Positions 1,802 to 33,981 of a stretch of 64,000 bases of DNA are shown piece by piece. The notes below the pieces were generated by a model, which worked only from the letters and a program-made list of their open reading frames with translations, had not been told where the DNA came from and did no database searches. The position numbers and the translations under genes were made by a program. The stretch comes from Pontiella agarivorans (lineage in GTDB: Bacteria > Verrucomicrobiota > Kiritimatiellia > Kiritimatiellales > Pontiellaceae): positions 1 to 64,000 of the forward strand of contig NZ_JARVCO010000008.1 of assembly GCF_034531395.1 (NCBI RefSeq). Reading direction: 5' to 3'. How positions within the stretch are numbered: position 1 is the stretch's first letter; each line of letters begins with the position of its first letter.

Positions 1802-3184
1802 ATGAAAAAACGGATAGTGATTCTTTCTTTGCTGGCAGGGATAACTGTGCTGGCGGAGAAAAAACCGAATATTGTAGTTCTGCTGGCTGATGACATGGGC
1901 TATGGGGAATTGGGATGCTACGGACAGGAAATCATTAAAACGCCGACGATTGATGCGTTGGCCGAGCAGGGGGTGCGTTTTACTGATTTCTATGCGGGGT
2001 GCTCTGTGTGTTCGCCATCGCGCGGGGTTTTGATGACCGGGATTCATGCCGGGAAGGCTACAATCCGGGGCAACAAAGCCTTTGTGACCGTTGGTGGAAA
2101 GTGGGACCGCATTGCGCTGAAAAAATCGGAAGTCACGCTGGCAGAAATGCTGAAGGGCGCGGGGTATCAGACGGCGTTTGTCGGAAAATGGCATTTGGGC
2201 ATTCCGGAGGATGTTTCGACCTGGGCCTGTAACCGCGGTTTTGATTTTGCGGTGCAGGAGCAGTGGGGGCCTAAGCCGGGTGGCGGCGTCTATGATGAGC
2301 GTTATCATTTGAAAAACGGCAATACGGAAGAGATTTTCCATGATTACACAAAGTGGAGTTGCCTGGATGAATTCCGCACGGAGATTGCGCTCGATTATCT
2401 GGATTCTGAGTATGACAAAGAAAAGCCGCTGTTTCTTTTCATGTCTTATCGCAGTCCGCATGCGCATGAGTTTTTCCTGAGTGAATATGACAATTATAAG
2501 GATGAGATGCGTGATGGGTATCGCTGGCCTGAGATTGAACGGCGGCATGCCTCGCGTATTTCGATGCTGGATCAGCAGATTAAACGGCTGCTGGATAAAC
2601 TTGAGGCCATGGGCGAACTGGAAAATACCTTTATTCTGTTTGCTTCGGATAACGGACCGACGGTGGAAAATCATCATGACCGGTTTTTCTTCCAGAGTTC
2701 GGGGGGGCTGAAGGGATATAAGCGTGATATGTATGAAGGGGGTGTGCGTGTTCCTGGGATTGCGGTGTGGCCGGCGAAGGGCTTGAAGGGCAAAGTGACG
2801 GATCATCAGGCCACGTTTTATGATGTGATGCCGACCTTCGCCGAAATTGCGGGCATTCAGCCGCCGGAGCAGACCGATGGTATTTCGTTCCTTCCGGAAG
2901 TGCTCGGCAAGGAACAGCCGAAACATGATCATATCTATTTTGAAATTATTGAAAGCCCTCATGATAAAGCATTCCGTCAGGCGACCCGGATGGGTAAGTG
3001 GAAGGCGGTGCGTTATGGGGTTTCTGGAAAAGTGGAGCTGTATGATCTCGAAAAGGATCTTTATGAAACCAGAAATGTGGCCGGTGAATATCCTGAAATT
3101 CTGATGCGCATGAAGAAGATTCTCGAGACCGAAAGCACAACCACCCCGCATTATCCCATGGCGGGACAGCCGATAAAGAACTGA
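1802..3184 (+). CDS. secreted formylglycine-dependent sulfatase (S1 family)
   Basis: Type I sulfatase of 460 residues with a signal peptide (about 1-18). The Asp pair is at 30-31, the maturation motif C-S-P-S-R at 70-74, and an SDNG motif near 282. The C-terminal part contains the usual VELYDLEKD stretch. The start follows the previous sulfatase by 21 bp. No strong Shine-Dalgarno is visible before ATG 1802, so it may be translated by coupling or leaderless-like initiation. The next gene (GH2) starts 8 bp after the stop. The same strand and short gaps argue for one transcript that desulfates and then cleaves one glycan. Confidence 0.93.
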   Translation: MKKRIVILSLLAGITVLAEKKPNIVVLLADDMGYGELGCYGQEIIKTPTIDALAEQGVRFTDFYAGCSVCSPSRGVLMTGIHAGKATIRGNKAFVTVGGKWDRIALKKSEVTLAEMLKGAGYQTAFVGKWHLGIPEDVSTWACNRGFDFAVQEQWGPKPGGGVYDERYHLKNGNTEEIFHDYTKWSCLDEFRTEIALDYLDSEYDKEKPLFLFMSYRSPHAHEFFLSEYDNYKDEMRDGYRWPEIERRHASRISMLDQQIKRLLDKLEAMGELENTFILFASDNGPTVENHHDRFFFQSSGGLKGYKRDMYEGGVRVPGIAVWPAKGLKGKVTDHQATFYDVMPTFAEIAGIQPPEQTDGISFLPEVLGKEQPKHDHIYFEIIESPHDKAFRQATRMGKWKAVRYGVSGKVELYDLEKDLYETRNVAGEYPEILMRMKKILETESTTTPHYPMAGQPIKN

Positions 3185-21513: not shown

Positions 21514-21549
21514 CCGGTGATCGGAAGAAAAATAAGAGGAGATGCGACG

Positions 21550-24500
21550 GTGAAACATACTATTATATCCATGCTGATTCTGAGCGCAGCCTGCGCGGAA
21601 GCATCGGTTATTGTGCAGTGGGGGGAATCCGGAGGGCATAATGCGGTGGTCAGCAGTTCGGCAAACTTTGTCGACGGTTCGATCACCACCAATTATTCCG
21701 GCAGTCAGCCGGATGTTTACATCGATTCGGGATATTATGAGCTTAACACCGCATCGCGTTCTCCTATGTTTCAGGTGTCGGCCAGTCTGAGTTCATTCGA
21801 CAGTGCCCAGACGCAGAACAACAGTGGGTTCGATCGCATCCGACTCGTCGCCGATGTCACTCATATGGAAACCATGTTTGTATGGGATGACTTTTTAACA
21901 ACGGATGACCTGGTTACCGGTTTCAGCTGGTATGGCTACGCTGCGGGAGAAAGCAGTGCCGATCTTTATTTTCTCATTCATAAAGACGGAGCCTGGTATG
22001 CCGCGCTGGGATCAGACCGCGTCAACGGTGCGGGCGGAGTCGATCTGCCTGATGCGACGGCTGCAACCTGGTATGCCTTCACTCCCATCACCAACGGGGC
22101 CGCTGCAATCGGTCCGGAGGTATCCGTTGATTTGTCGGGGGTCACCGCTGTCGGGTGCTATATCGTGCTGCCCAGCGGTTCGGGAACGAACATCGGACCG
22201 TATATGGGCTATTTTCAGGTCACGGCCGTCAGCAGTATCGGCGGTCCGCCGGCGTTTATTGCAGATTCTGTGATTAAATCAAATGCCATGGAAGGCGTGG
22301 CCTATACCAACAGTATTGCAGGGGATGCATCGGATCCCGACGGCGATCCAATGACGTTTTATAAAACCGGGGGTCCGGCCTGGCTGAACGTTGAGACCAA
22401 TGGTCAGATTACCGGAACGCCGGGGGTATTTGATACCGGAACCAATACCTTTACTGTTGAAGTAAGCGCAGTGGGAGGAACGGACAGTGCCATCCTTGAA
22501 ATCGTTGTGGACGGAGCTCCGGCAGTGGGCAGCCCGCCGGCATTTTCCAACGATCCGATCATCAAGCCGAATGCAACCCGGGGCTTGGGATATACCAACA
22601 GTATTGCCTTGGAAGCCAGCGATCCGGAAGGTGATCCCATGACCTTTTCCAAAGGAAGCGGTCCGGCGTGGCTGTCGGTGGATCCGGATGGCACCATTTA
22701 CGGCACGCCGGCCGAATCCGATGAGGGGTTGAATGAATTTACGGTTCAGGTCATTGCGGCCGGAGGTGCTGATTCGGCGACATTGAACATCACCGTTGAA
22801 CGTCCACCGGTGCCGTGGAATCCACACAGCGTGATGGTCGACTTCACGATTGATCAGGGCTATGTGGATGGAGATGTAAACAACAGTTCGAACTGGGTGG
22901 CTATGGGGGCGAATACGGTGAATACCCATGCTTCCGGTTATGACGGTGGGGAAGGGGTGCTTGTTTTTGATCCGGATACAACGTACCGCGATGCCGTATT
23001 CAATTCCTATGCACTGCTTGCCGAGGGCGAACGTATTACATCGGAATCGGTGTTCCGTTTCAACAGCACGAACACGGGCTCTTCAGCAACAAGCTACATT
23101 TTGTATGCCCATCTCTATTCGGATGAATGGTCGGTTGACGCAAATGAGGTTCAGGTGCGGTTGCGGCGCGTGAAAACGGCCCCGGATATATTCAGCATCC
23201 AGACGCTTTCTCGCGATGATTCAAATGCATCGCAATTTGAATATTCAGCAGAATTTTCCGGCAGTGTCCTCGGTCTGTCGTCCGGAATCGGTCAGTCGGA
23301 CTGGCTGAAAATGACATCGGTTTTAACCAAAGGAGCCGATGCTTCGTCCTGGAGCCTTTCGCTCAGGCTGGAAAACCTCGCTACTGCTTTTACGGTGGTT
23401 GATGAAACGCTGACCGGTATTGTCACTGCGTCGGATTTTTATAATGCGGGGCCGGTGTATCCCGGTCTCACCTCGGGCAACACGGATGAACAGCTTCAGG
23501 TGGCAACCGGCAGCCGCGAAGTGGATACATTCAATTCCTTCACCGATTCCGTTCCGCTCGTAGGGCATCCGCCGGCATTTACGCTGGATCCGATTCAGAA
23601 GCCCGTGGCGACCGTGGATACGGGCTATACCAACAGTATTGCATTGGATGCCGTTGATCCGGAAGGGGATCCGCTGACGTTCAGCAAACTGTCCGGCCCC
23701 GCGTGGCTGACTGTGGAAACGAACGGGGTGATTTGGGGAACGCCGCAGTCTCCGGATCTGGGGACCAACCGTTTTACTGTTCAGGTGAGTGCCGTGGGCG
23801 GAACAGATACGGCCGCACTGGAGATTGAGGTTGAGTCCGTCCCGGTTGTGAAGACCGGGTGGCAGGAATTTTATGAAAACTACGCACTCAGTGGAAATAA
23901 AGATGCCGACTTTGATATGGACGGAGCATCCGATGTTGCCGAATTTGCTTTCGGCGGAAATCCCGTAAATGCGGAAAGCCGACCGATGGAAGCCTATCTT
24001 GAATTCGACGGGATCAATGCTGTTACGTTCTATTCCGTGGAAACAGCGCATACGAATCCGGGAATTTCCTATGTCTGGGAATGGACCGACAGCCTGACTT
24101 CCAATGTCTGGAACACCGAATGGGCATCGACCAATTTTGCCGCGTCGACCTTGGCGGGGTATAACGAGGTCAACCGACAGCTTGATATTACCGGTATGGA
24201 TAATCTCTATTTCCGAAATCGGCTTTTCCGTCGACCGCAACCGAATATTCTAATGATTCTTATGGATGATCTCGGCTATTGTGATGTCGGGTTTATGGCA
24301 GATATTTTCGGGGAGGCGCGACCGTTGAGTCCTTCCACCCCGAATATTGATTCACTGGCAGGAAACGGCATTATCTGCTCACAGGCTTATGTGCCGCATC
24401 CGTTTTGTGGCCCGAGTCGTATGGGACTGCTGACCGGACGCTATCCGCATCATTTCGGGGGCTCAAAAAATCATCCCTACGAAACAGCTGATCGGCCGTC

Positions 24501-25698
24501 GCAGGCTTTTCTTGATGCTTATCCGCAATATGAAAAAGCAAATGAAGTGGGGATGCATACCAATGAAACCACTATTGCCAAGGTGCTGCAGTGGGCGGGG
24601 TATCACACCGGTGCCATCGGAAAATGGCATTGCGGAGTGGCCGAAGAATATCATCCGAACAACCGGGGTTTCGACTACTGGTACGGCATGCTCGGCGGCG
24701 GGCATAACTATTATTCCGATGGATGGATGTCCAAAACCAATCCGGCCGTCGTCAATGATTACCAGTTCTGGCTGACCCGTAACGGTGAGGAGGTTGATCC
24801 GGCTGTGGATCCAGGGCCGGGACGGCATTACATCACGGATATTTTTTCGGATGACGCCGTGGCATTCATTAAAAACCGACCGGCCGACCGGCCGTTTTTC
24901 CTCTACCTCTGTTATAACGCACCGCATGCACCGATGCAGGGCAAGGCGGAGGATCTGATTGAATTGTTCGGCGGGGATGGGGATGAAGATAACTATACCC
25001 GCGAGCAGAACGGAATCGCCATGATGCATGCGGTCGATCGTGGCGTCAGCAATATCATTGAAACGCTTACGCTGCAGGGAGAGCTCGATAATACCCTGAT
25101 CGTTTTTCTCAGCGATAACGGCGGAAAAGAACGCGATGCTGCAGATAACGAAAACGAGGCCGATAACGGACCGCTCAAAGGGGGCAAAGGCGATACCTAT
25201 GAAGGGGGGGTACGCTCGCCGATGTTTATCCATTATCCGGCGGAAATTACAGAGCCCGGAATGTATGAGCATCCGATCTATCCATACGATCTTTATCCCA
25301 CGCTGGCGCGTCTCGCTGATGCTTCGGTGCCGGGCGGGAAGGTTCTTTCGGGAAAGGATGTCTGGACTCAGATTCTGGCCAGCCGGGATGCGCATAACGA
25401 TGACGCCGTAATCTGGCTGCGGCACAACAGCGGAGCAAACCATGTTTCGATTCGTAAAGGCCGCTATAAAGCCAACCGGCTGAATAATGGGGGCTGGAAG
25501 CTGTATGACATTGTGACGGACTATAGCGAATCCAACGATATCGTCTCCGGAAACGAGACCATACTTGATGATATGATTGCGGATGGATTGATCTGGACTA
25601 ATGATACTGTGGATCCGCTGTGGCATGATACCGAAGCGGGATATTGGAATTGGGAAACCAATAATATGCCGAATTATGATGCCACCTTCAGCCGCTAA
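21550..25698 (+). CDS. giant secreted protein: jelly-roll/putative-Ig repeats fused to a sulfatase
   Basis: 1382 residues from GTG 21550, chosen for the AGAGGAG site seven bases upstream and the following signal peptide. Order: beta-rich N-terminal domain (about 20-230), putative-Ig repeats at 233-325 and 329-420, a second jelly-roll-like region (about 425-670), a third Ig repeat at 674-765, an acidic D-x-D-x-D-G-like linker (about 785-800), a further beta domain, then a complete sulfatase from about 896 with C953-G-P-S-R and LSDNGG near 1187. The sulfatase part is a paralogue of the preceding gene. The N-terminal region probably tethers the enzyme to glycan or cell surface. The enzyme-last order is unusual. 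Confidence 0.9.
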   Translation: MKHTIISMLILSAACAEASVIVQWGESGGHNAVVSSSANFVDGSITTNYSGSQPDVYIDSGYYELNTASRSPMFQVSASLSSFDSAQTQNNSGFDRIRLVADVTHMETMFVWDDFLTTDDLVTGFSWYGYAAGESSADLYFLIHKDGAWYAALGSDRVNGAGGVDLPDATAATWYAFTPITNGAAAIGPEVSVDLSGVTAVGCYIVLPSGSGTNIGPYMGYFQVTAVSSIGGPPAFIADSVIKSNAMEGVAYTNSIAGDASDPDGDPMTFYKTGGPAWLNVETNGQITGTPGVFDTGTNTFTVEVSAVGGTDSAILEIVVDGAPAVGSPPAFSNDPIIKPNATRGLGYTNSIALEASDPEGDPMTFSKGSGPAWLSVDPDGTIYGTPAESDEGLNEFTVQVIAAGGADSATLNITVERPPVPWNPHSVMVDFTIDQGYVDGDVNNSSNWVAMGANTVNTHASGYDGGEGVLVFDPDTTYRDAVFNSYALLAEGERITSESVFRFNSTNTGSSATSYILYAHLYSDEWSVDANEVQVRLRRVKTAPDIFSIQTLSRDDSNASQFEYSAEFSGSVLGLSSGIGQSDWLKMTSVLTKGADASSWSLSLRLENLATAFTVVDETLTGIVTASDFYNAGPVYPGLTSGNTDEQLQVATGSREVDTFNSFTDSVPLVGHPPAFTLDPIQKPVATVDTGYTNSIALDAVDPEGDPLTFSKLSGPAWLTVETNGVIWGTPQSPDLGTNRFTVQVSAVGGTDTAALEIEVESVPVVKTGWQEFYENYALSGNKDADFDMDGASDVAEFAFGGNPVNAESRPMEAYLEFDGINAVTFYSVETAHTNPGISYVWEWTDSLTSNVWNTEWASTNFAASTLAGYNEVNRQLDITGMDNLYFRNRLFRRPQPNILMILMDDLGYCDVGFMADIFGEARPLSPSTPNIDSLAGNGIICSQAYVPHPFCGPSRMGLLTGRYPHHFGGSKNHPYETADRPSQAFLDAYPQYEKANEVGMHTNETTIAKVLQWAGYHTGAIGKWHCGVAEEYHPNNRGFDYWYGMLGGGHNYYSDGWMSKTNPAVVNDYQFWLTRNGEEVDPAVDPGPGRHYITDIFSDDAVAFIKNRPADRPFFLYLCYNAPHAPMQGKAEDLIELFGGDGDEDNYTREQNGIAMMHAVDRGVSNIIETLTLQGELDNTLIVFLSDNGGKERDAADNENEADNGPLKGGKGDTYEGGVRSPMFIHYPAEITEPGMYEHPIYPYDLYPTLARLADASVPGGKVLSGKDVWTQILASRDAHNDDAVIWLRHNSGANHVSIRKGRYKANRLNNGGWKLYDIVTDYSESNDIVSGNETILDDMIADGLIWTNDTVDPLWHDTEAGYWNWETNNMPNYDATFSR
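22246..23838 (+). repeat. three putative-Ig repeats inside the sulfatase fusion
   Basis: Three homologous units begin at 22246, 22534 and 23569, each about 270-288 bp. Each opens with P-P-A-F, carries G-Y/A-Y-T-N-S-I-A, D-P-x-G-D-P-x-T-F, G-P-A-W-L and G-T-P, and ends near S-A-V-G-G-T-D. The first two are adjacent. The third is separated by about 765 bp encoding a different beta-rich domain. Confidence 0.85.
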
Positions 25699-25893
25699 GG
25701 TCCCGGCGCGGAAAATCCTGCGTTCTGCGCCGCGGAAGCGGATGCGGCTCATTCGCAGGCTTTGCGGAACCTTCGATTTTTTTATCTTTTTCCGGGCATT
25801 TTCAGTGCCTGGAAAACCCGCGAAAAAAAGTTTGAGAAATGGCCTTGCCAAGGCCGGAGTGTTTAACTATCTTCCTCACCTCTTATCACCGAT
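25699..25893. promoter_or_regulatory. intergenic region with tRNA promoter candidate
   Basis: No gene seen. TTGCCA (25845-25850), a 17-bp spacer and TATCTT (25868-25873) form a plausible promoter about 20 bp upstream of the tRNA. The -35 lies inside a 15-bp palindrome GGCCTTGCCAAGGCC (25841-25855). Confidence 0.4.
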
Positions 25894-25970
25894 GGCTGAG
25901 TAGCTCAGTTGGTCAGAGCAGTGGAATCATAATCCACGTGCCGGGGGTTCAAGTCCCTCCTCAGCCACCA
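25894..25970 (+). tRNA. tRNA-Met (anticodon CAT)
   Basis: A full cloverleaf is visible. Acceptor GGCTGAG (25894-25900) pairs with CTCAGCC (25960-25966). The D-arm contains AGCTCAGTTGGTCAGAGC, the anticodon stem GTGGA/TCCAC encloses CAT at 25928-25930, and the T-arm has GGTTCAAGTCC. The 3' CCA is encoded (25968-25970). CAT can also mark tRNA-Ile2 with a modified C. The first acceptor pair is G-C, so it is not the initiator type with an unpaired 1-72. Confidence 0.95.
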
Positions 25971-25976
25971 TTTTTC

Positions 25977-25999
25977 AAGCCGCGCATGCGGCTTTTTTT
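25977..25999 (+). terminator. intrinsic terminator after tRNA-Met
   Basis: A seven-base stem AAGCCGC/GCGGCTT with a four-base loop is followed by a T run. It lies seven bases after the tRNA CCA end and separates it from the zinc-finger miniprotein gene. Confidence 0.85.
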
Positions 26000-26015
26000 G
26001 TAGCTGGAGATCGTT

Positions 26016-26159
26016 ATGAACTGTTCATTCTGCGGAAGATCTGAAGACGAGGTCGATGTGATTGTTGCGGCCACCGAGCAGAATGTGGCGATCTGCGATG
26101 AGTGCGTCGAAATCTGCAATCAGGTCATTGCCGAGGAGCGCGCGAAAGCGAGCGAATAG
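26016..26159 (+). CDS. stand-alone ClpX-type C4 zinc-finger miniprotein
   Basis: 47 residues. C3-x-x-C6 near the start and C27-x-x-C30 form the C4 zinc site seen at the N-terminus of ClpX (C-x-F-C-G-R...I-C-D-E-C-V). The hydrophobic V-x-V-I-V-A spacing between the pairs also matches, and a short charged helix follows. GGAGA five bases before ATG 26016 is a good ribosome site. It is not a ClpX fragment in an operon: no AAA+ domain follows. Its last 35 bp overlap the 3' end of the convergent GDYXXLXY-type gene. In ClpX this domain dimerises and binds adaptors, so an adaptor or decoy role is conceivable but unproven. Confidence 0.75.
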   Translation: MNCSFCGRSEDEVDVIVAATEQNVAICDECVEICNQVIAEERAKASE

Positions 26160-26700
26160 ATTCGCCCTCCACATAGACGTCTTCGATCACGGCCCGGCCG
26201 TTGAGAATCCGCACATCCACCCAGCAGTCGCCCCGGCGCGAAGCGTCCGCAGCGATTCTTTCCGCCCGCGGGGCTTTGTCCTCCTCCATATAAAACCGGT
26301 TGAAGGGAAGCTGCAGCCCAACCTTGCAGGTTTCTGAGTCGCGGACCGCGGTGTATCCGCCGCGCGTCCGGGTTTTCAGGTAGGCGGAGGATTCAGGGAT
26401 TTCCTGCAAGCCTTCGGTGAACCGGGCATAGCCGTCCTCATCCACCTCAATGGCGGCATAAATCCGCTGCTTTCCGCGGAAGTCCGCCGCTTTTTCTTGC
26501 GGGACCGTGCAGTAGTCATCCTGGATCTGCAACCGGACAAAGCGCCCCTGGAACGGATCGGCCGGATCGATCGGCCGGGTTTTAAAGCTGAATCGCTCGC
26601 CGTCGCGCAGCACTTTTTCGCGGTTGAGTATCATGCGGACCGGCACAGCCAGCTGAATGAACACGGTGAGCAGCAGGACGAGGAGATAGATTTTCTTCAT
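26125..26700 (-). CDS. GDYXXLXY-type membrane-anchored protein
   Basis: 191 residues with an N-terminal hydrophobic anchor (about 4-22) and an extracytoplasmic domain. R-P-I-D-P-A-D-P-F-Q-G-R-F-V-R-L matches the conserved block of the GDYXXLXY family in a degenerate form (G-R-F-V-R-L instead of G-D-Y-x-x-L). Its ATG overlaps the DUF2157 gene stop as ATGA, the usual partner of this family. Function of the family is unknown. Last gene of the sigma-54 operon. The 3' end overlaps the convergent miniprotein gene. Confidence 0.8.
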   Translation of the reverse strand: MKKIYLLVLLLTVFIQLAVPVRMILNREKVLRDGERFSFKTRPIDPADPFQGRFVRLQIQDDYCTVPQEKAADFRGKQRIYAAIEVDEDGYARFTEGLQEIPESSAYLKTRTRGGYTAVRDSETCKVGLQLPFNRFYMEEDKAPRAERIAADASRRGDCWVDVRILNGRAVIEDVYVEGESIRSLSRAPRQ

Positions 26701-29827: not shown

Positions 29828-30606
29828 GCCGGGCCTCCGGGGGGCTGTTTGGTTGGAGGGTGCTCAATGGAGCAGGATGATTGGCCTGCGGTGAAGCGGC
29901 CGGATTCCAGAAAGAGGACGGTCTGCTCAATCACCGTCCGGTTCCACATCATCGTGGCGTGCGTGGTGTGGAGCTGGAGGTAATCGGTGTAGGCGGCAGG
30001 TTTCACCCGGGCAAGCGCGACCTTGCCATCGTCCGGGCCGGGAATCAGCATGGAGAGAATCGGGTTGATCGAGCGGTCGCCCGCCACAATGCCCAGTTCA
30101 AACTCCGGAGCCTTCAGCCGGAGCGGGTGGCCGTTGGTACCCAGCTGATTCCCGGCCGGACCGTTGATCCATTGATAAAGAAAGACGCCGCCGAGTTTAT
30201 CGGTCACCTCGCTGCCGCGGCTCGGCGGTGCCAGCATGACGACTCTTCCAAGGTTTGGAAGATCGTGGTCTTCCAGGTATTCGCGCAGAATGATCCCGCC
30301 CATGGAATGGGTCACAAAATGCACCCGTGCGGCCGGACAGATCTGCGGTTCCAGGGATTGGAAAATATCGGCCGTCAGTTTTTCGATGGTTGCGGAGGTT
30401 GAAGGATAGTCGTGATTGATGACGGTATACCCCTCGGCCGTCAGTTTTTTCTCCAGCTTGTTCATGGCTTTGGACGAACGGGCGAGCCCGTGAAGCAGCA
30501 CGACGGTTTCCTGTTTTTTCACACTTGCGCAAGTGTGAAATCCGGGGGTTCCATACAGAAGAAACGCGGTCATAATCAGAATTCCGGTCAGCAGAATAAT
30601 TTTCAT
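29824..30606 (-). CDS. secreted/anchored alpha/beta-hydrolase (lipase-like)
   Basis: 260 residues. N-terminal hydrophobic signal or anchor (about 2-19). Oxyanion block V-V-L-L-H-G-L-A-R near 35-43, nucleophile elbow V-T-H-S101-M-G-G, acidic residues in P-G-P-D-D and a late H-T-T-H segment as candidate catalytic His. This fits a triacylglycerol-lipase/PGAP1-like esterase. It overlaps the acyltransferase fusion stop by four bases (ATGA). Two palindrome copies (30246, 30349) lie inside. Role inferred: releasing acyl chains or processing an acylated product in the envelope. Confidence 0.83.
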   Translation of the reverse strand: MKIILLTGILIMTAFLLYGTPGFHTCASVKKQETVVLLHGLARSSKAMNKLEKKLTAEGYTVINHDYPSTSATIEKLTADIFQSLEPQICPAARVHFVTHSMGGIILREYLEDHDLPNLGRVVMLAPPSRGSEVTDKLGGVFLYQWINGPAGNQLGTNGHPLRLKAPEFELGIVAGDRSINPILSMLIPGPDDGKVALARVKPAAYTDYLQLHTTHATMMWNRTVIEQTVLFLESGRFTAGQSSCSIEHPPTKQPPGGPA

Positions 30607-33600
30607 GATGCCCTCACGGTTTTATAGACGGACTGGAGATCGAGTTTACCGGTTCCAAGGGTTGGAAGTTCCGGCAGGTGGAAAAAGTTGGCGGCGCGCG
30701 GAATCCACAGGTTCGGAAGGCCCAGGTTCCGGAGTTTGGAAATCAGGTTTTCCGGATCGCCGGCGGCCGGGGTAATGCAGACGGCGAGCTGTTCGCCTTT
30801 GGCCCGGTCTTCGACACCGACCACCGCGACGCACGGCTCCTCGGATTCGGCCACCTGCTGCAGGGCTTCCTCGACGGCTCCGTGCGGAACCATCTCGCCG
30901 CCGATTTTACTGAAGCGCGAAAGGCGGCCGCTGATGCTGACGTATCCGCGCGGGTCCATGGTGGCGATATCGCCGGTGTTGTACCATCCGTCCTGCAGGA
31001 CTTCGGCGGTTTTTTCCGGCTGGTTCAGATAGCCCTGCATGACATTGGGGCCCTTGATCAGCATGAGACCTGCTTCGCCGTCGGCCAGCGTTTCGCGGGT
31101 TTCCGGGTTTACGATACGCACGGCGACGCCCGGCAGCGGCTGGCCGGCGGCGCCGGCGCGGTATCCGTTTTTCAGGCTGAGCAGGGCTACAGGCGAAAGC
31201 TCGGTGCATCCGTAGCCCTCCAGCGGCTGGAGATCAAATTTTGCTTTAAACGCGTCGGCCACATCGGTGCGCAGTTTTTCGCCGCCGGTGATTACATGTT
31301 CCAATGATTGGAAATCTTCGGCGGCCGCTTTCCGGGTGTAGGCCTGCAGGAAGGTCGGCGTGGCCAGCAGGGCTGTCAGCTGTTCTTCTTTAATCAGTCG
31401 GATTACGCGGGCGGTCTGCAGCGGGTTGGGGTGATAGGCCGTGCGGATGCCCTTGAGCAGCGGCCACCACATCAGGCCCAGATAGCCGAAGGCATGAAAC
31501 AGCGGAAGGATGGCGCACATGGAATCTTTTTTGGTGAAGGCCTGAACCGCCTGCGTGGATTCCACGTTCGAGAGAATGTTGGCGTGGCTGAGCATGACGC
31601 CCTTCGGCATACCGGTGGTGCCGGAGGAAAAAATGATGGTGGCGAGGTCGCCCGGCTGCGGTTCGCGTCCGCCGGCCAGGTGCTGCGGTGAGGCGAACAG
31701 CGCGGCGCGGAGGGCGCGGAACTTTTCAACGCGGCCCAGGTTTTTCAGCAGGTCTTCGAGGTAGATCCGGCGTACCGGAAGGTCCGGGGCCCCGGTTTTC
31801 TGCAGGAAGCGGCGCGACGTGATGACATATTTTATTTTTGCCTGTTTCACGGCCGAGACCTGGGCGTCTGCAGATGCGGTCCAGTTCAGGTTAACGGCGG
31901 TTTTTCCGGAGAGGGTCAGCGCCAGATTTGCCAGCACATTGCCCACGGAGGTCGGCAGGAAGATGCCGATGTTCTGGTGATTTTTTATCTGCGGTTTCAT
32001 GCGGTTGGCCAACGCAACCGATCCGGTCAGCAGTTTGCCATAGGTTGCTTTCTGTCCGAGCGTGTCGGAGATGATCGGCCGGAACCAGTTGCGGCGGGCC
32101 TGGGCGATGAATTTATGAGCCAGCGTATTGCCGGGTTTCAGGCTTTGTTCGGTGGCATAGTTGGCGCCGAGTTCGGCGATCACGCAGCGGGCTTCATCGG
32201 CCGGAGTGTCGGTCGGCAGGGCCTGGCCGAAACGCACTGAGACCGGGCGGGGGAACTGCTCCGGTTTACGGAGGCCCGGCTTGCCGTTTTTAAAGCTGAA
32301 GATGCTGCCCCAGATATTTCCGATATGCGCCGGAATAATCGGGCATCCGCTGTTGCGGGCAATCTTTTCGAACCCCTTGTTGAATTTCATCAGGTTGCCG
32401 TTGGTGGTCAGGGCGCCTTCCGGAAAGACGCCGACGATGGCGCCGGCTTCCATGGCTTCGCGCGCTTCTTTTAGCGACCGGGCGAGGGCGCGCGGTCCGT
32501 CGGAGGTATGAATCGGAATGCAGTCGGTGAGTTTGAAGAAGGGGTAGGCCCATTTCCAGGTTTTGAACACATCGCGCGACATGACAAAGCGGATCGGGCG
32601 GCCGGTGGCGGCCTGCAGCAGCAGGGCATCGGCATAGGCGGTGTGGTTGCAGATCAGCAGGGCGCCGCCTTCGCGCGGCAGATTTTCCAATCCCTGGAAA
32701 CGGATTTTATAGAGGCGGTTCACCAGGCGGATCAGCCAGAAGCGCGTGAAGAAGCCCGGCAGGCGCAGGCAGGCGATTACAGCCGGCACTGCGGCGATCA
32801 GTCCGGTCACAAGCACGCAGCCGCGGGCGTTCATGTGGAAAACGTTGGTGAGCAGATAAAAGAGGCCGGAGGCCGCCACCATGGTGGAGAAACTCAGAAA
32901 ATCGGTGGCTCCGAAAACCGCGCCGCGTTTATCGGCCGGAACGCGCTGCTGCAGGAAGGCGTTGAGTGGAACCAGATACATGCCGCAGCCCATGCCCAGG
33001 AAAACAATCCATCCGCCGATTACGATAGGGCCGGTTGCCAGCGAAAGGCCGATGGCGCTGAGCATCACACCCAGGGCACCGACCGGAATCAGGCCGATTT
33101 CAATCGTGTGCTTCGACAGTTTTCCGGTCAGCAGCGCGCCGAGTCCGATGCCGACGGCGGCCAGCGGGAAAAGCATCGGTGCGCGCTCCACGGTGAGGCC
33201 GAGGGCTTCGCGGCCATAGAGCACGAGGGTCTGCTGAAACAGGGCGGTGATGCCGCCGAAGAGCACGAGGCCGAGCATGGCCTGCTTGGCCCAGTTGTCG
33301 GTTTTGATCGATTTAACCGCATGCACAACATCGGGAATAATCCACGGCGAGGTGTGGCGCGTTTTTCCAAAGGCCGGAACGTCGGCCATTTTATAGGAAG
33401 CAAAGGCACCGGTCAGGGCCAGCGCGGCGCAGACTGCCAGCACCAGCAGGGGGCTCAGCCCGAGATAACCGACCATCAGCGCGGGCAGCGCAGTGCCCAG
33501 AATGATGGCAACATAGGTGGCGGCGGTGAGGAAGCCGTTGGCGCGGGAGAGCTCTTCGTCGTTCACCAGTTCCGGCACAATGCCGCGTTTGGCAGGACCG

Positions 33601-33941
33601 AAGAGGGCACTCTGGGTGCAGAGCAGAAAGAGCAGCGCATAGACCGGCCAGACCAGACCGGAAATCAGGGTGGGAACCGAGATGGCCAGCAGCTCGACTT
33701 CCATCCATTTGCTGACGATGATGATGTTTTTCTTGCTGAACCGGTCGGCCAAAGAGCCGGCGGCATTGGAGAAGAGGATAAAAGGGATAACGAAGAGTGC
33801 TGAGCAGATGGCGATGACGGTCGGCAGGCTCTGATCGCCCAGCAGGGAAACCAGCACGATGACCGCCGTCATCTTAAAGGCATTGTCGTTAAAGGCCCCG
33901 GTGGCCTGACTGATATTTAACCATTTGAATGTATTTTTCAT
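30603..33941 (-). CDS. LplT/Aas-like fusion: MFS transporter + acyltransferase + acyl-ACP/CoA ligase
   Basis: 1112 residues from ATG 33941, chosen for AGGAG six bases upstream. Three modules: an MFS transporter with about 12 helices (1-400, LplT-like), a PlsC-type acyltransferase with N-H433-T-A-Y-A-D438 and F-P-E-G 506-509, and an AMP-forming ligase with S-S-G-T-T-G-M-P-K near 772-780. E. coli LplT and Aas do the same jobs as two proteins: lysophospholipid flipping and re-acylation. First gene of the six-gene operon, directly behind a sigma-54 promoter. Three palindrome copies lie inside. Substrate could be a lysolipid or another acyl acceptor. Confidence 0.9.
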   Translation of the reverse strand: MKNTFKWLNISQATGAFNDNAFKMTAVIVLVSLLGDQSLPTVIAICSALFVIPFILFSNAAGSLADRFSKKNIIIVSKWMEVELLAISVPTLISGLVWPVYALLFLLCTQSALFGPAKRGIVPELVNDEELSRANGFLTAATYVAIILGTALPALMVGYLGLSPLLVLAVCAALALTGAFASYKMADVPAFGKTRHTSPWIIPDVVHAVKSIKTDNWAKQAMLGLVLFGGITALFQQTLVLYGREALGLTVERAPMLFPLAAVGIGLGALLTGKLSKHTIEIGLIPVGALGVMLSAIGLSLATGPIVIGGWIVFLGMGCGMYLVPLNAFLQQRVPADKRGAVFGATDFLSFSTMVAASGLFYLLTNVFHMNARGCVLVTGLIAAVPAVIACLRLPGFFTRFWLIRLVNRLYKIRFQGLENLPREGGALLICNHTAYADALLLQAATGRPIRFVMSRDVFKTWKWAYPFFKLTDCIPIHTSDGPRALARSLKEAREAMEAGAIVGVFPEGALTTNGNLMKFNKGFEKIARNSGCPIIPAHIGNIWGSIFSFKNGKPGLRKPEQFPRPVSVRFGQALPTDTPADEARCVIAELGANYATEQSLKPGNTLAHKFIAQARRNWFRPIISDTLGQKATYGKLLTGSVALANRMKPQIKNHQNIGIFLPTSVGNVLANLALTLSGKTAVNLNWTASADAQVSAVKQAKIKYVITSRRFLQKTGAPDLPVRRIYLEDLLKNLGRVEKFRALRAALFASPQHLAGGREPQPGDLATIIFSSGTTGMPKGVMLSHANILSNVESTQAVQAFTKKDSMCAILPLFHAFGYLGLMWWPLLKGIRTAYHPNPLQTARVIRLIKEEQLTALLATPTFLQAYTRKAAAEDFQSLEHVITGGEKLRTDVADAFKAKFDLQPLEGYGCTELSPVALLSLKNGYRAGAAGQPLPGVAVRIVNPETRETLADGEAGLMLIKGPNVMQGYLNQPEKTAEVLQDGWYNTGDIATMDPRGYVSISGRLSRFSKIGGEMVPHGAVEEALQQVAESEEPCVAVVGVEDRAKGEQLAVCITPAAGDPENLISKLRNLGLPNLWIPRAANFFHLPELPTLGTGKLDLQSVYKTVRAS

Positions 33942-33981
33942 TTCCGCTCCTGAAGGTTGGTTGTTCAACAACTCCCCTTAA

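Follow-up and report, generated by a model that had tools for sequence, protein, structure and literature searches.

Stand-alone ClpX-type zinc fingers in phages and bacteria

The zinc-binding domain (ZBD) of ClpX forms a dimer on which adaptors and some substrates dock. Its residues F16 and I46 belong to a side pocket and are needed for trigger-factor action; the pocket overlaps the lambda O site and lies in the region also used by SspB and RssB (PMC7804408). Stand-alone copies of this domain are a kind known by name, and their function is hardly studied in the literature found: a search on 'ClpX C4-type zinc finger', in which subscription journals were thinly covered, returned no functional paper. 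The RefSeq product name 'ClpX C4-type zinc finger protein' designates the P88 type, whose gene occurs in 109 of 5426 E. coli genomes and whose product belongs to phrog_6797, a family without functional annotation. A further small stand-alone treble clef is CsfB/Gin of Bacillus subtilis, an anti-sigma factor that is dimeric and resembles the ClpX ZBD (PMC5890618).

Here we describe a 47-residue protein of this kind encoded in the marine bacterium Pontiella agarivorans, within a 64,000-nucleotide stretch of the genome that we refer to as the window. Like the E. coli prophage/P88, D6 and PhiR41_1 proteins, it consists of a ZBD without AAA+ domain, whereas those forms carry some 60 extra N-terminal residues and are encoded in phage accessory or early regions. 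It resembles more closely the bare ZBDs of phages, such as those of Pantoea phage PdC23 and of the IMG/VR contigs L079, L141 and L143, which at 54-67 aa are essentially ZBD only but are phage-encoded, mostly keep the AGP loop and are about 46-57% identical to the mini-protein. The preliminary description of this locus had presented the gene as a free copy of the ClpX module; the gene is indeed genuine and selected, but it is less singular than this suggests, since annotation already has a name for such proteins and phages encode them frequently. What is unusual about it is its minimal size, its chromosomal site behind a tRNA terminator and its divergence from the ZBD of its host.

Among the best 80 virus-contig loci, we identified many AAA+-less ZBD proteins of 54-144 aa and some full ClpX, and two single-sequence scans of viral sequences added nothing new. 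A 69-aa stand-alone form is encoded on a Bradyrhizobium plasmid, and matches in genome contigs other than the Pontiellaceae copy were nearly all full ClpX. The 'C4-type zinc finger' of phage KS10 was set aside as belonging to the DksA/TraR type and not to the ClpX ZBD.

Several of these virus contigs presented features of their own. In Pantoea phage PdC23 (L110), a stand-alone ZBD ORF of 54-66 aa at 2965-3165, between a small ORF and rusA, is absent from the deposited annotation; ZBD mini-genes fall below usual length cut-offs, and here even a finished phage genome lacks the annotation. The ZBD proteins of phage D6 (NC_050154.1) and of L111 (2809-3141) are labelled 'carboxylate-amine ligase', an apparent propagated misannotation. 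In four phage ZBD proteins (L157, L163, L170 and L182), the zinc finger is preceded by a common N-terminal segment resembling 'KAKKYDELL', which may point to a second conserved module in the longer forms from phages. Many virus contigs, among them L146, L151-L156, L164-L165, L169 and L174-L177, also encode their own ClpX at full length (about 400 aa).

A 47-residue zinc-finger gene behind a tRNA-Met terminator

The locus comprises the following features, with G040 denoting the closest relative that carries the gene.

25845..25873, + strand: sigma-70-like promoter of the tRNA, TTGCCA-17-TATCTT (consensus scan)
25894..25970, + strand: tRNA-Met (CAT) (ARAGORN; Rfam tRNA, 68 bits)
25977..25999, + strand: intrinsic tRNA terminator, immediately 5' of the mini-gene (terminator scan)
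26006..26009, + strand: GGAG Shine-Dalgarno, 6 nt 5' of the ATG (direct reading; kept in G040)
26016..26159, + strand: stand-alone ClpX-type C4 zinc-finger gene, 47 aa (PF06689; third-position-biased divergence; AlphaFold)
26125..26700, - strand: convergent GDYXXLXY (PF14345) gene, a neighbour outside the mini-gene unit

The reading frame begins with ATG and encodes the 47-aa protein MNCSFCGRSEDEVDVIVAATEQNVAICDECVEICNQVIAEERAKASE. A Pfam search matched this protein to PF06689 (zf-C4_ClpX) with 56.6 bits (E 2.3e-15), well past the curated cut-off of 27 bits, with residues 2-40 aligned to profile positions 2-39 of 39 and no other family at E <= 1. There is no AAA+ domain in the frame, the score against the NCBIfam ClpX model (36 bits) is far below its cut-off of 359, and PADLOC returned no defence-family match. 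Judged on its sequence, the product is the C4 zinc finger of ClpX and nothing else. The preliminary description had thus picked out a genuine gene and identified its domain rightly, as a stand-alone ClpX zinc module of 47 residues with a ribosome site of its own, and it had also placed the gene rightly after the tRNA terminator.

The zinc ligands, C3, C6, C27 and C30, follow a CxxC...CxxC arrangement and are invariant among the homologues of the mini-protein, relatives included; loss of these cysteines in relatives had been named beforehand as a result that would speak against the gene. The protein most likely binds zinc and dimerises. Four zinc ligands within 47 residues could also suit a zinc reservoir or metal-handling microprotein, but a single zinc is expected per monomer, conservation reaches well past the cysteines and no metal transport or Zur-type context was noticed, so that we regard such a role as very unlikely.

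The terminator consists of the hairpin AAGCCGC-GCAT-GCGGCTT followed by a T-run, which ends 16 nt before the ATG of the mini-gene. The consensus scan found one promoter site, against 0.3 expected, and this tRNA promoter is the sole promoter-like site found for the mini-gene transcript. Since the 16-nt gap is too short for an ordinary promoter, the mini-gene is probably expressed at low level through read-through of the tRNA-Met terminator. In G040, both promoter hexamers, the terminator stem and the Shine-Dalgarno are kept, and the terminator loop is changed. The convergent GDYXXLXY gene overlaps the last 35 nt of the mini-gene and is missing at the corresponding place in G040, which has an unrelated convergent gene there instead.

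A similar sulfatase gene lies upstream in both genomes, whereas their downstream sides differ. In the window, a 1393-aa sulfatase (21517-25698), preceded by three Ig-like (He_PIG) domains, stands between that upstream sulfatase and the tRNA, and has no counterpart there in G040. Further along, at 30603-33971 on the minus strand, a 1122-aa ORF appears by eye to be a fusion of transporter, acyltransferase and AMP-forming ligase.

Selection, distribution and relationship to the host clpX

The order of tRNA, terminator and mini-gene is kept whole in G040, where the mini-protein is 91% identical. The two genes differ by 13 bases in 45 codons, 11 of them at third positions (P = 2e-4, equal rates), with 10 synonymous and 2 non-synonymous codons. 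A further copy, 74% identical, is present at another location and without tRNA in Pontiellaceae bacterium B12227 (G017), and here 28 of 37 differences fall at third positions (P = 2e-7). The third-position bias against both genomes indicates purifying selection on the protein, and on this coding evidence the mini-gene is real and selected as a protein, not a product of chance.

The distribution of the gene is patchy. Of 28 genomes from the genus, three carry it, and a second ZBD was present in seven of 384 genomes of the phylum, four of them outside the genus, one of which (G084) encodes it as a 52-aa protein. On the ClpX tree, the window genome and G040 are sisters and G017 is placed elsewhere, so that the tree as drawn implies at least two gains or losses of the mini-gene, although a single origin is still conceivable. 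Conserved synteny of tRNA-Met and mini-gene, which had been put forward as a check, holds in G040 but not for the copy without tRNA in G017 or for the genus at large. A general tRNA-mini-gene synteny was accordingly rejected, as related tRNAs were matched in other genomes of the genus with no such gene 3' of them.

This patchiness, with its two or more changes on the tree as drawn, would also be consistent with a captured phage or mobile-element gene of little or no host function, recently kept by chance beside the tRNA. tRNA genes are frequent insertion places, and the stand-alone ZBDs found here come mainly from phages. Clear purifying selection between genomes argues against such a capture, as does the fact that no phage gene family was found among the few neighbours scanned. 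Nor is there a tRNA-end repeat elsewhere in the window of the kind that a tRNA-linked integrative element might leave, no copy of the tRNA 3' end of at least 12 bases being found there, a search that a remnant could escape. The origin tree, built on a 44-column alignment that cannot place where the gene came from, is compatible with both a phage and a ClpX origin. Taken together, we consider capture without function distinctly unlikely.

The genome, of 4,436,865 bases on 12 contigs, has one clpP-clpX pair: on contig 12 (357250), an intact clpX complete with a ZBD adjoins clpP, so that a ZBD without AAA+ and a separate clpX occur in the same genome. Because this full clpX is on another contig, the mini-gene is neither part of a split ClpX nor a relic. 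The mini-protein does correspond to the N-terminus of ClpX, and a frameshift-relic relation to a full clpX at the same locus of relatives had been raised at the outset as a result that would undo its interpretation; the full clpX lies elsewhere and is intact. There is no AAA+ remnant downstream, the frame ends cleanly before a convergent gene, and the protein is only 44% identical to the host ZBD and selected as it stands. An origin as a broken clpX is thus exceedingly improbable, and we rejected it on the intact clpX elsewhere and the purifying selection.

Predicted fold and candidate partners

The AlphaFold2 model of the mini-protein, computed from an alignment of 29 rows that combined window proteins with retrieved ones, has a pLDDT of 95.3 and presents a treble clef with two short strands and a C-terminal helix. 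Its best match in the PDB is 2ds8_B (the E. coli ClpX ZBD with XB, the SspB tail peptide), at 0.6 A over 39 residues, and strong matches were to ClpX ZBDs only, with a structural Z of 7.1 for 2ds8_B, middling because the domain is tiny, against at most 3.6 for any non-ClpX chain. The mini-protein is thus predicted to fold as a ClpX-ZBD treble clef. It shares the full domain, the four cysteines and the predicted fold with the N-terminal ZBD of ClpX (PF06689; PDB 2DS5-2DS8, 1OVX), and in our alignment F16 and I46 of the latter map to F5 and V37.

Unlike the ClpX ZBD, the mini-protein has no AAA+ domain, is encoded by a separate gene, carries a two-residue insertion, has lost the AGP loop and is far more acidic. 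The host loop AGPG is replaced by AATEQN, two residues longer, and the basic KR of the hairpin by DV; the host ZBD has a net charge of -2, the mini-protein one of -8. No matching change was found in the host domain, and the ClpX ZBDs are alike in genomes with and without the mini-gene. These departures in loop, hairpin and charge suggest that the partners of the two domains may differ.

ClpX is our best guess for the target of the mini-protein, and we give about even chances to the mini-protein being a trans-acting modulator of ClpXP that mimics or pairs with the docking domain. Under this proposal, low-level synthesis through read-through of the tRNA-Met terminator would supply a free copy of the N-terminal docking domain, which would fold as a zinc treble clef, form homodimers or pair with the ZBD of the host ClpX, and alter the access of adaptors or substrates to ClpXP. 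Because adaptors dock on the ZBD dimer of ClpX, a free ZBD could act as a decoy that titrates them or could pair with the ZBDs of ClpX. The whole-domain match, the selection on the protein, the fit of the model to 2ds8 and the counterparts F5 and V37 of the two pocket residues support this proposal, as do the promoter and terminator scan and the single intact clpP-clpX pair available as target. The recurrence of AAA+-less ZBDs in the early or accessory regions of phages that infect several different hosts is likewise what would be expected of a trans-acting host modulator. Against ClpXP modulation stand the only 44% identity to the host ZBD, with the changed loop, hairpin and charge of the mini-protein, the likeness of ClpX ZBDs whether or not a genome has the mini-gene, and the precedent of CsfB, in which the same dimeric fold serves an unrelated target (PMC5890618).

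The main rival to ClpXP modulation is a CsfB/Gin-like use of the fold, in which the mini-protein would bind a sigma factor, RNA polymerase or another regulator. It is a live rival because CsfB inhibits sigma factors and ZBD-type fingers are fused to sigma factors: CsfB, a small homodimer with a treble-clef fold, is structurally closest to the ClpX ZBD (PMC5890618), and zf-C4_ClpX occurs as an accessory domain in some cyanobacterial sigma factors (PMC11119718). A non-ClpX partner would also suit the loop and charge of the mini-protein, which are unlike those of ClpX, and the LuxR-type response regulator gene upstream of the G017 copy, a region in which no structured-RNA family of Rfam was found. 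CsfB/Gin is, however, a different sequence family, without a match to the mini-protein in Pfam at E <= 1, and is about 20% identical to the ClpX ZBD (PMC5890618), against about 50% between the mini-protein and the E. coli ZBD; in addition, we noticed no sigma factor gene adjacent to it in any of the three genomes that carry the mini-gene. We consider a non-ClpX partner possible but rather unlikely.

ClpXP modulation by the mini-protein is directly testable, since fold, partner sites and assays are established. More speculatively, and in our estimation unlikely, the gene may represent a chromosomal free docking domain that is co-transcribed with tRNA-Met through a leaky terminator and works as a trans-acting dial on ClpXP, a counterpart of phage mimicry. 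ClpXP selects many of its substrates through the ZBD, and a bare ZBD encoded separately by cells and by many unrelated phages would be a simple and general means of retuning or blocking the protease. If this is true, the mini-gene would be the cellular counterpart of a widespread hijacking or blocking of ClpX by phages through domain mimicry.
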